NCBI GenBank assembly: GCA_033819885.1
Contig: JAQYUZ010000011.1
Span: 248,001 to 312,000 of the forward strand
Direction of reading: 5' to 3'
Length of the DNA stretch: 64,000 bases
DNA from: Microbotryomycetes sp. JL201
Lineage: Eukaryota > Basidiomycota > Microbotryomycetes
Below the pieces are notes generated by a model, which worked only from the letters and a program-made list of their open reading frames with translations, was not told where the DNA came from and searched no databases. The number at the start of each line of letters is the position of its first letter. Positions within the stretch are counted from its first letter, which is position 1. A program made the translations under genes and the position numbers. Positions 26,910-53,735 of this stretch are shown here, in pieces.

Positions 26910-29067
26910 ATGGGCATCACCGAAAAGAGTCTGTCCCCTGACCCTGTACCGTCTCGTCGGCGGCAGGGGCACTGACACACTCCAATATCCTGCGTCCTCT
27001 CCCGCCTTGCGACCCGCTAGTCGCCGAAATTGAAAAGGAGATGGCGCGGTGAGCGAATGCGCGCGCGCGACCCGCCGAGCGCCAACAACTGAGGCAACTC
27101 CCTTCGCAATCATCAGGACACAGAAGAACAAAGCTACAGAGTACCATCTGGGGACACTCAAGGCAAAGCTTGCACGGTATCGCGCCGAACTGCTCGAGGG
27201 AGACTCGAAATCCGGAGGCAAAGGCGCAGGGTTCGATATCGCAAAGTCTGGATATGGTCGTATCGCTTTGATCGGGTTTCCCAGTGTTGGTGCGCCGCCC
27301 GTCTCCATCCTTCGCCCGCTCTGTCTCTCTCGCGTGTTTGCGCCAACGTCCGTCACGTGACTCGACCTGACCCGTCCGCGGTCCCTCAGGCAAATCCACG
27401 CTGCTGTCAAAGCTGACTTCGACAGAGAGCGAAGCGGCAGACTATGCTTTCACGACTCTGACTGCAATCTCGGGCAGTGAGTCCTTACCTCGTTGCTAAG
27501 GCACGCGTGCGAGGTTGACCCGTTGTTATCTAGTTTTGGACTTGGACGGAGCAAAGGTGCAGCGTGAGTCGGTCGTGTCCTTTCTGATCAAGTCGATGGA
27601 TGAGCTGACTGATTCGCGCCCGCGCCAGTCCTCGATCTTCCCGGAATCGTCGAAGGCGCTTCTAGTGGCAAAGGTCGCGGTCGGCAAGTCATTGCAGCAA
27701 CAAAGGTACGCACGCATCAGAACCAGTTTTACAAGCTCGTCTGACTGGGCTTGTGATCCAGTCTGCCGATCTGATTCTGGTGAGCGAGAGCCAAAGTCGC
27801 ACATCCGCGACTTGAGCTGATTTCTTCCTCACAGATGATGCTGGATGCAACAAAGTCAGCTTGCGACTAACGATATATCAGAGTCTTGTGCTGATCTCCA
27901 ACACTTTCCAGGTCAAACGATCAACGCGAGAAGCTCGAGATTGAACTCGAAACCGTCGGAATGCGGTTGAATCGAAAGAAGCCGGATGTCATTGTCAAAA
28001 CAAAGGTCCGTCCGGCAGTATACCTGAAGAACTCTGCAGCTGACTGCCCCAACTCAGACCGCAGGCGGTATCACCATTAATTCGACCGTTACGCTCACAA
28101 GAACCGACGACCGAGCCATCCGAGGTGTCCTGGGAGCGTACAAGGTGCGCCAGCCTCGATCTTGTATCGATATCGTGCAGAATCTTACGTACAGAAAACA
28201 GATGCACAACGCAGACGTCATGATTCGCGAAGACGTAAGCAACGAATCCGTATTACTTTTGCCTGGAGTTGAGCATGTCGCTGAACGATGGTACGACAGA
28301 TCACAACAGACGATCTCGTTGACGTAATTCTAGGCAACCGAAAATATGTACCATGCCTGTACTGGTACGCCTCGCAAAGTTTGCACTCGAGCTCGTGCTG
28401 ACACGAAACGCAACGCACAGCTACAACAAGATTGATTCCGTTTCGCTCGAGGGTGCGTTGGCAAGCTCAGCGGCTTTCGCAACAAGCTATTGACGCTGCC
28501 ACTTCATAACAGAGGTTGATCGCATTGCTCGCGAACCAAACACGGTCGTCATTTCTTGTCATGCCGACCTCAATTTGGACGTCCTCAAAAAAAGGTGTTG
28601 GCAAATGATTGGTCTCGACCGAGTGTACACGAAGAAGAGGGGCGAGATGCCAGATTTGTCAGACCCGTTGATTTGCAAGAGGGACGCGTCTGTCGAGGCG
28701 ATCGTGAGCTTTAAGCGACGTGTCTGAGCTCTGCGCGCAATCAATTGCAAGAATTGGTGTGGCTGACCATCCAATCTACAGTGCAACTCTATTCACAAGT
28801 CTTTGTCGCTCAAATTCAAGTACGCACTCGGTCAGTACTGCGCGAATAATGGCGAAAGCAAGGATCGTGCTAACTCGTGACGTGACCCAACGTGATACAG
28901 TCTGGGGCAAGAGTTCAAAATTCAACCCAAACCCTCAGAAAGTTGGTCTACACCACGTGTGTGCGCCAGACGACGTCATTACAATTTGTAAGCAGTCGGA
29001 ATACCGTCTTCAGGCACGCAAACTGACGACCCCTATCATTACATGACGTGTAGGTACAAAAGTCTAG
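26910..29067 (+). CDS. RBG2: DRG2/RBG2 developmentally regulated GTP-binding protein
   Basis: This is an Obg-related translational GTPase (Rbg2, partner Gir2, in yeast). I can join 17 exons, several very short (19, 28, 30, 18, 20, 33 and 14 bases), into about 367 residues; human DRG2 has 364. The product reads [41 protein letters not shown]1 [15 protein letters not shown], switch region [31 protein letters not shown] (G3), [61 protein letters not shown]-like [20 protein letters not shown] with ID (G4 NKID), [38 protein letters not shown] and the TGS domain up to DDVITICTKV. The TGS part is slightly altered ([11 protein letters not shown]). DRG2 rather than DRG1 is indicated by ATEYHLG and ISFNST-like ITINST. 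Confidence 0.93.
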
Positions 29068-49625: not shown

Positions 49626-50987
49626 CTAAGCCCTCTTCTGCTTATTCATCCTGTTGACAGCCTTGTCAAACTTGCCTCGCTTGCGCTTGCTGCCTTCGTC
49701 CATAACCCCACTCGTGCTCGCTGTATCTGTCGTCACCCGCGCCCGTTTCGCAGACTGCTTCATCTTTTTCATTTCGTCGTACGCGGCGTCATTCCTGCCC
49801 CTGTCCATCTCTCCCAACAAGTCATCAAACTCTGCACCAAATCCGCCCAACCTGCGACGACCATTCTTGCCAGAACCCAATCCTCCGAACGCAACTTCTT
49901 CCTCCTGAGCTCGACGCTGACGAGCTTCCTTTTTGGATTTGCGCAATCGTGTAAAATTGGCCATTTCGTAATCTTCGATTTGCTTGAGGTGGCGTGCCGT
50001 GCCAGACATGAGTGCTGGATCGACAGCGACCGACAAACCAGTCGTCGTCTCTCCATACGGTGTCGACCCTGACAAGCCGATGGACATGTCGTTGACGAGA
50101 TGTGACGTCGGTGGGCGTTTCGCTTTCTTGCCTAAAGAAAAAAAAAAACGCATGCCACAAGGGCAGCGATCGTCAGCGGGCGATTCTCTTCATCCTCCTG
50201 TATTGGCATGCGCGCGTACCCTTCGCAGGACCTTCGGCATAGGGCATAGCAGACACTCGTGGCGGCCTGTATACGCCAGATTTTGGCCTGTCGTCATCGT
50301 CTTCGTCTGCAGATGCGCGGCCGTCGTCCGAAACACCACCGCGATCGACCATCAGAGTGTCAGGGTTGGGTCGGAATGCAAGAGGATCTGCAAATGATGC
50401 AAAGTCTTGGTGTGAGCAAACCTTTACGGAGAAAATGAGTCCCAAAGACAAGCAAATAGGGAACTTGCCATTCGCGACCTGGTCGTCGTCCTGAGGCTCG
50501 TCTGCCTGGTCTGCTTTGCGCACGAGCTTTTCGATTTGATACTTGAGTCGTTGCTCTAGCGGTGCGACTTTTTCGAGCACGACGCGCAGCTTGACGAGCG
50601 TCGCCACCACTTGGCTACCTTCGGCCGAAGTCAACGACCTCGCTTGCAACCGCAAAGCAAACACGGCAACGAGGTGGTGCACGTAGGACAACAAGAGTTG
50701 ATTTTTGAGTGACAAGAGCGAGATGCCTTGGGGGTAAGAGAGCTCGGTCGTCGAATTGAACCTGTGTGATTATGCGCCAGTTCAAAAGTCAGCCACGACG
50801 TTGCCCTCGAGACGAGTCCTTGGCCGGGCAATGTTCAGGCGCACTTTTCTTGCCAGGCTGTGACGCTGTCTGACACTGCCTTGACGCCGTGCTGCACGTC
50901 TGCGAGCAAAGTCCGAACGAGCTCGAGTTGGTCGTCGTGCGCGACGGCTGAAGATAATCCAGCAGTGGTTGCTGACACGTCTGACAT
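49626..50987 (-). CDS. LCP5: LCP5/neuroguidin-like ribosome biogenesis protein (Sas10/C1D family)
   Basis: This is a U3 snoRNP-associated factor for 18S rRNA maturation. Start MSDVSATTAGLSSAVAHDDQ; exon 1 has LELVRTLLADVQHGVKAVSD followed by SVTAWQEK. Next comes FNSTTELSYPQGISLLSLKN, QLLLSYVHHLVAVFALRLQA, VVATLVKLRVVLEKVAPLEQ and RLKYQIEKLVRKA, the Sas10/Utp3/C1D domain. DPLAFRPNPDTLM, GVYRPPRVSAMPYAEG, GLSVAVDPALMSGTARHLKQ, IEDYEMANFTRLRKSKKEAR and a Lys/Arg-rich end (KRKRGKFDKAVNRMNKQKRA) complete the typical order. The intron before GKKAKRPPTSHLV carries a run of nine T on the coding strand in front of its acceptor. Stop at 49626. It is divergent from uS13m. Confidence 0.9.
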
Positions 50988-51252
50988 GATCTCAGATGTC
51001 GACAAATGCGGCTTCAGCGCGCGAGATGAAGATGTACGGGCGGATGAAGGCGGTGAACAAGAGCCGCTCAGGCTCGCTTCTTTTTCGCTTCAAAGGCCGA
51101 CACGGCCTCGGATCCGCCGCGTCAAGCTTCTACGTCACGCTTACAACAACCAGACTCGATATTAGCCAATCGCCTACGTATTGCAACGTAACTCACAAAG
51201 TCGCTTTGATCCTTTCAGCTCGTCCGACCAGCCAGGGCAACTGCACTTCACG
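50988..51252. promoter_or_regulatory. Divergent promoter and 5'-UTR region LCP5/uS13m
   Basis: 265 bases up to the first base of the split uS13m start codon. It contains ATGs on the plus strand at 51026-51043 that would precede the uS13m start if transcription begins far upstream; none is in the spliced uS13m frame without a stop. No TATA box is clear. Confidence 0.4.
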
Positions 51253-52061
51253 AGTAAGCACGCATCATTCGCGCGGTCTCGCCCGTGTTCCCGCTCATCA
51301 GAACTTGCCTTCTGTGCAGTGGTCAACTTGCTCGGCGCGACGCTGCCTGACCGCAAGCTCGTCAAGGTGAGCAGCTCGCACCGCAAACCTGCCGTCGAAC
51401 GTCGGCATGTTCCCGTCTCACTTCGGTTTCTGCTCCTAACTTGTCATCTTCTGTTATGGCGCGCCGTCATGTTCCAAAACAGGTGGCCTTGCTCGCGTTT
51501 TACGGCATCAATCATCACACGTCTTCGCGCATCATGGCGCGCTTGCAGTTTCACGACCAGCTGCGAGTCGGAGACATGACTGAGCCACAGCTGAATGCGT
51601 TGTCGGCTCTGTTATCCTCGCCTGCAGCCGCTGCGAGACCGTCGACGCCACTGCGACCGTTCCTTTTGCCCGGCGCCCAGTCTCAGGCATCCACGTCGCG
51701 AGCCCCGCAAATAGACCTTGAGCAACGCGATCCTCCGCCACCCGAGCGCGATCCAATCTCGTCGCTCGTGATTGAAGAAGATTTGCGACGACGAATGCGC
51801 GCCGACATTGCTCACCACCGCACAGTTGGCACGCTCAAAGGTCGTCAACATGCCATGGGTTTGCCTGTCAGAGGACAGAGAAACAAGACGAACGCGCGAA
51901 CGGCCAAGAAACTGAACAGGATCGAGAGGCGGTACATGAGCACGGCCGTAGTGGCTACCGCAGATTCGAGGCTATCCTCGTCCTCAAGGTATGTCCATGA
52001 ACCTTTCTGGGTCGCTCTTGGCACATTATACAAATCCAAGTTTAGACAAGTGAAATGCTGA
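51253..52061 (+). CDS. Mitochondrial small-subunit ribosomal protein uS13m, start codon split by an intron
   Basis: This is mitochondrial ribosomal protein S13 (Sws2-type). The coding frame MVNLLGATLPDRKLVK requires a start made by joining the A at 51253 to TG at 51320-51321, across a 66-base intron (A|GTAAGC ... GTGCAG|TG). No ATG is in frame upstream of GTCAACTTG without splicing. A second intron (51367 to about 51482) leads to VALLAFYGINHHTSSRIMAR, LQFHDQLRVGDMTEPQLNAL, then a Pro/Ser/Gln-rich insertion of about 70 residues, and IEEDLRRRMRADIAHHRTVG, LKGRQHAMGLPVRGQRNKTN, ARTAKKLNRIERRYMST. H2TH-like helices and the C-terminal GLPVRGQRT motif are canonical. The 3' end is uncertain: a good GTATGT donor near 51990 could add another exon. 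Confidence 0.85.
51254..51319 (+). other. 66-base intron that splits the uS13m ATG
   Basis: Donor GTAAGC and acceptor TCTGTGCAG are standard for this genome. The exon base before the donor is A and the first two bases after the acceptor are TG. Confidence 0.75.
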
Positions 52062-52426: not shown

Positions 52427-53735
52427 ATGGCACGCAATGAAGAGAAAGCTCAGTCGATGCTGTACCGGTTCCGAGAAAGTCAAGCGGCCGAGCTAGGCTT
52501 GGGCGTTAGGTCAGACCGTCGACCTCGCGTCGCTGCTCATTGCAAAGACTTGAGGCAAGCAGAGAGGTGGAGGGGTGAAATATTGAGAGAGATCAGTCGC
52601 AAAGTCTCAAAGATCCAAGATGGTCAGTTTCGAACAAAAGTCGAGAGCAGCCCACGGACGTTGGGCGAGGGCAGCAGAGGGCGCAATGCTGACGATTGAA
52701 TGACCTTTATGAATCGGCAGCTGGATTGACAGACTATGAAGTACGAGATTTGAACGACGAGATCAACAAGTTGCTGCGCGAGAAACGACACTGGGAGAAC
52801 CAGATCGTGTTCCTCGGCGGCGCAAACTACAAGCGCGCGGCGGGCTCAATGACGGACGCGTCAGGCAGAGAAATTCCAGGCATGAGGGGCTACAAGTGAG
52901 TTGACCGATCAGAAGCGGCTCGCCGTGCCTCGATAGACTCAGGCTTGGTCTGACTACCCGCTTTGCGGCGGTCCACTAGATATTTTGGACGGGCGAAGGA
53001 CTTGCCTGGTGTCAAGGAGTTGTTTGCGTCAGCTGGTAAGCGATTGATGCTTTCGATTGTATTGGAGTTTTGGAGTTTTTGTTGACTCACTACTGGGCAA
53101 TTGCAGCTGCTGAGAGCGAGGAGGCCGAAAAGTACAAGCATCAGCGGCATACGATCTTTAGCAACCCAGGGCCAAATTACTATGGAGAGCAAGATGATCA
53201 AGACGAAGCGTTGCTGAAAGCAGAGAGAGAAGCGGAAGAAGAGGGTGAGGAATGCATGCTCGCGCGACCGTCTCGATCAAGAAACCTCTGACGCTGATTA
53301 TTCTTCCCTTTGTCTGCTCAATTTGATGCTCACGCAGCCTGGGAAGACGCTCTTGACAATTTGCGCGAAGTGATTCAGCTACCGGATCCAGCACCCGCCG
53401 CTCCAGAAGCCCGATACATCACCCTGGATGGTTCGGCCGACCAAAATGAAGATGCAGACGATGACGACGACGCGCCGCAAGAACCAGCTGTCGAGACTGG
53501 AAAACGCAAAGCTGCAAGCAAAAAGAAATCGACTGCCAAATCTACGAAAAAGACAAAGACGGACGAGGGCGCGGTACAGTCGACAACAAGCAAGCCGCAA
53601 GGAACAGGGTTCTTGAGCGTGCTCAAGGCTTCGGACCTGAGACCACCGAAATTGTTGACAGCAGACGAGATGGACAAGGTGATTGTGGCTGCCCAGAAAA
53701 AGCTGTTGCTGGAGGAGTATGCATTGCAAGGGTGA
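52427..53735 (+). CDS. ISY1: Pre-mRNA splicing factor ISY1
   Basis: This is a spliceosomal protein of the NineTeen/Prp19-related complex, acting at the first step. Start MARNEEKAQSMLYRFRESQA, then RDLRQ-like KDLRQAERWRGEILREISRK and VSKIQD. Across introns: AGLTDYEVRDLNDEINKLLR, EKRHWENQIVFLGGANYKRA, GREIPGMRGYKYFGRAKDLP and GVKELFASA. Then come AAESEEAEKYKHQRHTIFSN and GPNYYGEQDD, a further intron, and AWEDALDNLREVIQLPDPAP. The C-terminus is acidic then basic (GKRKAASKKKSTAKSTKKTK) and ends EYALQG. Every conserved ISY1 block is present in order, and the family's invariant NYKR and GREIPG are intact. At least four introns. Confidence 0.94.

Follow-up and report, generated by a model that had tools for sequence, protein, structure and literature searches.

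In Microbotryomycetes sp. JL201, a short intron very probably splits the initiator ATG of the gene encoding mitochondrial ribosomal protein uS13

Where translation begins is the question raised by a gene at 51253-52061 of the DNA analysed here, a stretch of 64,000 nucleotides from contig JAQYUZ010000011.1 of Microbotryomycetes sp. JL201 (the window). By homology, this is a nuclear gene for the mitochondrial ribosomal protein uS13 (uS13m). No ATG was found in the unspliced uS13 frame between the nearest upstream stop and 51321, nor anywhere on the plus strand between 51044 and 51407. The original prediction for this locus was that an intron separates the A of the start codon from its TG, and that the codon exists only in the spliced RNA.

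The letters at the locus accommodate this reading. The plus-strand flank ...CACTTCACGA ends on the A at 51253, which would be the sole coding base of exon 1. It is followed by a putative intron of 66 nt (51254-51319, GTAAGC...GTGCAG, with the 3' end TTCTGTGCAG) and then directly by TGGTCAACTTG, that is, TG GTC AAC. The donor abuts the A and the acceptor abuts the TG, and removal of the intron joins the two into ATG-GTC-AAC, with a spliced product that begins MVNLLGATLPDRKLVK. When the second predicted intron (51367-51482) is removed as well, the protein reads MVNLLGATLPDRKLVKVALLAFYGINHHTSSRIMARL... and ends at a TGA at 52059-52061. The coordinates first given for the split codon and its intron, 51253-51321, are correct. 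Features of the gene and of its surroundings are collected in Table 1.

Table 1 Predicted features of the uS13m gene and its upstream flank (positions in the window)
Feature	Position	Strand	Basis
Short intergenic stretch, inferred promoter and 5' leader of uS13m	50988..51252		Gene model
Putative initiator A, only coding base of exon 1	51253..51253	+	Letters; homology puts Met1 here
Predicted intron 1, 66 nt, GTAAGC...GTGCAG, length a multiple of three, stop-free in the uS13 frame	51254..51319	+	Letters, splice scores
GTG formed by the acceptor G and the TG when intron 1 is kept, in the register of Met1	51319..51321	+	Letters
Exon 2, TG + GTC AAC ... AAG, residues (M)VNLLGATLPDRKLVK	51320..51366	+	Letters
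Predicted intron 2, 116 nt, GTGAGC...AACAG, phase 0	51367..51482	+	Letters, splice scores
Exon 3 of uS13m, up to the TGA stop	51483..52061	+	ORF, letters, Pfam
ATG of Met34, first ATG if intron 1 is kept and intron 2 removed; uS13 frame	51534..51536	+	Letters
Possible in-frame intron of 57 nt inside exon 3	51989..52045	+	Acceptor weak (6th percentile)

The identity of the protein was assessed with Pfam and by comparison with PDB chains. It matches the Ribosomal_S13 domain (PF00416) with an E value of 5.5e-19 and 69.3 bits, against a cut-off of 31. Among the 109 PDB sequences that matched, of which the best 60 were listed and five alignments viewed, the four best relatives are mitochondrial uS13 proteins rather than cytosolic ones. 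Together, the domain match and these relatives confirm the assignment to mitochondrial uS13 that had been made from the letters. One copy of uS13m was found in the genome (17,152,241 bases in 92 contigs); the family search returned it and one other gene, on contig C12, which reads as cytosolic RPS18. Viral contigs, when scanned, yielded no relatives. Neither Rfam nor tRNA scanning of the 64-kb window gave a match. Gene content, short introns and a G+C of about 55% fit a fungus, most likely a basidiomycete. The possible intron inside exon 3 is stop-free and a multiple of three in length, so that the same stop is reached with or without its removal.

The PDB alignments also bear on the position of the first residue. 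Chain 6yw5_MM, which we take to be from the mitoribosome of Neurospora crassa, begins MVFILGVNFNEHKLVQ, and its first residue is matched with the first residue of the spliced product. The alignment with SWS2 (8d8k_M), presumably the Saccharomyces cerevisiae protein, begins at query residue 2 and chain residue 3. From these alignments, the initiator methionine is expected exactly at the splice junction, with no extension ahead of it; the family N-terminus begins at the junction.

To place the splice sites among those of the genome, we used a two-strand gene model trained, without RNA, on 264 kb of contig C3 around and including the window. An earlier model that handled the strands apart was discarded; it had merged the uS13m region into one gene. 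The model retained 80 genes scoring above 20, with 629 introns of median length 61 nt, intron 1 itself being among the 629. Against this set, the donor of intron 1 (6.87 bits) stands at the 45th percentile, the acceptor (8.30 bits) at the 93rd, their sum at the 81st and the length at the 64th, all within the distribution of local introns. No donor in the interval 40-260 nt upstream of 51319 scores better than 51254, and no acceptor within the 260 nt that follow 51254 scores better than 51319. The branch-point candidate is weak: the sole one is a CTCAT, 23 nt before the intron ends, and the motif favoured in the genome is CTGAC. A CTRAY motif was found in 52% of predicted introns, and CTNAY turns up in 35% of shuffled ones. 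Judged by their scores, the splice sites of intron 1 are ordinary to good by the standard of this genome. For intron 2, the donor stands at the 96th percentile, the acceptor at the 38th and the length at the 97th. In the gene model, a start at the split codon also scores 12.9 nats better than one at Met34.

How readily such a pair of sites might arise by chance matters for another explanation, in which there is no intron at all and the GTG at 51319-51321 is either the true start or a sequencing error for ATG. This GTG sits exactly at the position of Met1, as that explanation would have it, but any intron placed between A and TG with an AG acceptor leaves a GTG there, and nuclear genes rarely start with GTG. 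The plus strand of the window has 25 acceptors equally good as that at 51319 and 35 equally good donors with an A before the GT. The chance of an equal acceptor at the exact base, together with an equal A-ended donor 42-99 nt upstream, is 3.9e-4 x 0.032, or about 1.2e-5. Without an intron, the 93rd-percentile acceptor and its matching donor would be a coincidence of about 1e-5, and we regard a GTG start or a miscalled ATG as exceedingly improbable. The letters, the splice-site scores and the N-terminal homology all favour an intron between A and TG. The two lines of support named in the original prediction, splice signals and the family N-terminus, are borne out by the 81st-percentile pair of sites and by the residue-to-residue alignment with 6yw5_MM. 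We consider it very probable that the start codon of uS13m is cut into A and TG by a short intron and rebuilt by splicing.

Two further explanations would place the start upstream, in the short stretch between uS13m and its divergent neighbour. The neighbour lies on the minus strand and has its predicted ATG at 50985-50987 in the gene model; we take it to be an LCP5/neuroguidin-like gene from a reading of its protein. Between the two genes, a CCAAT occurs at 51166, one of 49 on the plus strand of the whole window. An open frame of 76 codons (51026-51253) is also present there, with a basic, presequence-like N-terminus and a content like that of intergenic DNA. Downstream of uS13m, the next gene on the same strand lies at 52427-53735, and the gene model fused it to uS13m; from a reading of MARNEEKAQSMLYRFRE, it is presumably ISY1, a splicing factor.

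The first of the upstream starts is the ATG at 50996, followed by an intron at 51034-51218, a small exon at 51219-51253 and then intron 1, which would put the extension MSTNAASAREMKISSDQPGQLHFT ahead of MVNLLG. The gene model gives this arrangement a margin of 0.36 nats over the split start, and retains it when split starts are allowed. Such ties weigh little, because the model likewise extends RPS18 upstream of its conserved MSLVVPE. Moreover, the extra intron has a donor at only the 8th percentile and is 185 nt long, compared with a 95th percentile of 99 nt and a 99th of 177 nt. A mere 9 nt separate this ATG from the one predicted for the divergent gene, so that the transcript would have to begin in or at the coding end of that gene, and the extension is absent from the N. 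crassa and yeast proteins. We therefore think a start at 50996 very unlikely.

Alternatively, a presequence exon that begins at the ATG at 51026, 51032, 51044 or 50996 could be joined from a donor at 51222 to 51320. Its frame is open and the peptide is rich in Lys, Arg and Ser, as a presequence might be, but, according to which ATG is taken, its score is 12.9 to 14.8 nats short of that of the split start. Its content, -8.5 to -10.4, is like that of intergenic DNA (747 overlapping intergenic windows have a median best-frame value of -9.5, and the 1st percentile of 114 exon starts is 0.4). The donor at 51222 is at the 10th percentile, the CCAAT lies inside the exon, and both the N. crassa and the yeast protein lack such an extension. 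Its coding content and its weak donor led us to reject the presequence exon, and its probability appears minimal.

With the start placed at the split codon, the upstream exon drawn by our own gene model is probably a false N-terminus. A gene finder that favours an intact ATG would either truncate uS13m or give it such an addition, and the same annotation error can strike other genes of this genome with introns close to the start. The earlier suggestion that the arrangement escapes most gene finders is supported to the extent that a program which favours an intact ATG can go wrong, as our model probably did by placing an upstream exon here.

We propose the following course of events for the split start. 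Transcription probably begins upstream of 51253, in the stretch that lacks an ATG, and the spliceosome would take out 51254-51319 as part of routine, presumably constitutive, processing. As no plus-strand ATG occurs between 51044 and 51407, the junction AUG would be the first of the mature mRNA if transcription begins after 51046. Its context, TTCACG AUG G, is good: position -3 is an A and +4 a G, and these are also the commonest bases at the 80 predicted starts (A at -3 in 30, G at +4 in 34). Translation from this AUG would yield MVNLLGATLPDRKLVK... with no N-terminal extension, like the N. crassa and yeast proteins.

It had also been proposed that dependence on splicing makes intron 1 a built-in on/off switch. 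Conditional retention of the intron, shutting the protein off, is compatible with a split start, and if intron 1 stayed in the RNA while intron 2 was removed, there would be no ATG after 51044 before Met34. However, the splice sites are ordinary, and the retained intron is stop-free with a GTG in the register of the start, so that nothing marks an off state. Being stop-free with a length divisible by three is a property shared with 94 of the 629 predicted introns. Because the in-register GTG and the in-frame ATG of Met34 remain, we infer that retention would not shut the protein off cleanly, nor would nonsense-mediated decay necessarily follow. In Yarrowia lipolytica, splicing is most efficient for introns near the start codon, and genes with introns there vary least in expression (PMC13309789), which also argues against a switch. 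With ordinary sites, unclean retention, efficient splicing of the published class and nothing that hints at regulation, the switch is not supported, and we assign it a very low probability.

A related idea, with a slightly smaller chance of being right, is that incomplete splicing of intron 1 is put to use, the level of splicing tuning mitoribosome supply or import. If so, initiation at the GTG at 51319, the ACG at 51250 or the CTG at 51241 would give a normal or an extended protein, the extension being Ser/Arg-rich and presequence-like (SKHASFARSRPCSRSSELAFCAV), and a protein without its first 33 residues would result from scanning to Met34.

Whether introns lie close to start codons elsewhere in this genome was addressed in several ways. 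Across the 80 predicted genes, introns are denser near the start: over the 30 nt that follow the ATG, their density is 0.00875 per nt per gene, and further in it is 0.0046 to 0.0054 (0.0048 at 123-303 nt). From the densities of 0.0048 and 0.00875, we extrapolate, rather than count, a split ATG in about 1 to 2% of genes, provided that introns hit the codon as they hit its surroundings. We also took the LSM family, whose 14 matches fall in 13 genes (L043 and L044 belong to a single gene), and read the starts of 10 of the 13 genes by eye against the N-termini expected of these proteins, leaving out L031, L034 and L039. An intron seems to follow the ATG directly in three of the 10, L032, L033 and L037, which we take to be Lsm2, SmG and Lsm4. 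In L032 (G000:C2 near 175,950, minus strand), the letters ATG/GCAAGT...CTGCAG/CTCATC point to a GC-AG intron after the ATG; in L037 and L033 the introns are GT-AG. A model that accepts GT donors alone instead picks an in-frame ATG that lies within the L032 intron. Two other loci, L035 and L040 (presumably SmF and Lsm7), have an intron 12-15 nt past the ATG, and the SmE-like L038 has one at 15 or 33 nt, according to which of two in-frame ATGs is chosen; L036 and L043, read in the same way, have no intron near the predicted ATG.

Three ribosomal protein genes read for comparison, RPS18 (L022), the uL14/RPL23-like L030 and the uS12m-like L026, have intact start codons. The first intron lies at 114 nt in L030 and at 431 nt in L026, and in RPS18 a CAG that resembles an acceptor stands 5 nt ahead of the ATG. 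In the window, a gene at 26910-27049, which we take to encode a DRG1-like GTPase, has a probable intron 19 nt past its ATG whose acceptor was misplaced by the gene model. Overall, introns hugging the start look frequent in this genome, and no second A/TG or AT/G start was seen among the genes read by eye.

A survey of the 264 kb with split ATG codons allowed returned no A/TG start, uS13m's own included, and two AT/G starts, one of which scored above 20. Nine false start codons served as a control and gave ACG 2, ATC 1, GTG 1 and 0 for each of the other six. With similar counts from the false codons, the survey shows no excess of split starts and has too little power to detect one.

Within this genome, the closest likenesses to uS13m are the short start-adjacent introns of the genes that we take to encode Lsm2, Lsm4 and SmG. 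These introns follow the G, leaving the ATG intact in the DNA, whereas that of uS13m follows the A. The proteins 6yw5_MM and SWS2, presumably of N. crassa and S. cerevisiae, share with uS13m the extension-free N-terminus and the C-terminal half. They differ over about 46 residues (62-107), a Pro/Ala-rich segment that lies between the two conserved halves of uS13m and is unaligned in both.

No entry found in our literature search named a uS13 with a split start. The gene as drawn is in line with leader and intron lengths in Cryptococcus neoformans, for which one report gives a median leader of 105 nt and a mean intron of 63 nt (PMC7049704). The arrangement itself is already known from Y. lipolytica, and a claim of novelty is not supported. 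In that yeast, one study counts 47 genes with the lone A of the ATG as the first coding exon (PMC2911113). Another counts 42 introns with the 5' splice site just after a nucleotide of the start codon, be it A, T or G (PMC13309789). In the latter, whose class takes in introns after A, T or G and not A/TG alone, introns close to the start codon are spliced most efficiently, and expression across 12 conditions varies least in genes that carry introns there (PMC13309789). Y. lipolytica belongs to another fungal lineage and has a median intron of 196 nt, compared with 61 nt here (PMC13309789). The studies in that yeast had cDNA or transcriptome data; the uS13m intron is predicted from sequence. The A-only exons nevertheless offer the closest parallel in the available descriptions: as predicted for uS13m, a spliceosomal intron lies between A and TG, and the AUG exists only after splicing.
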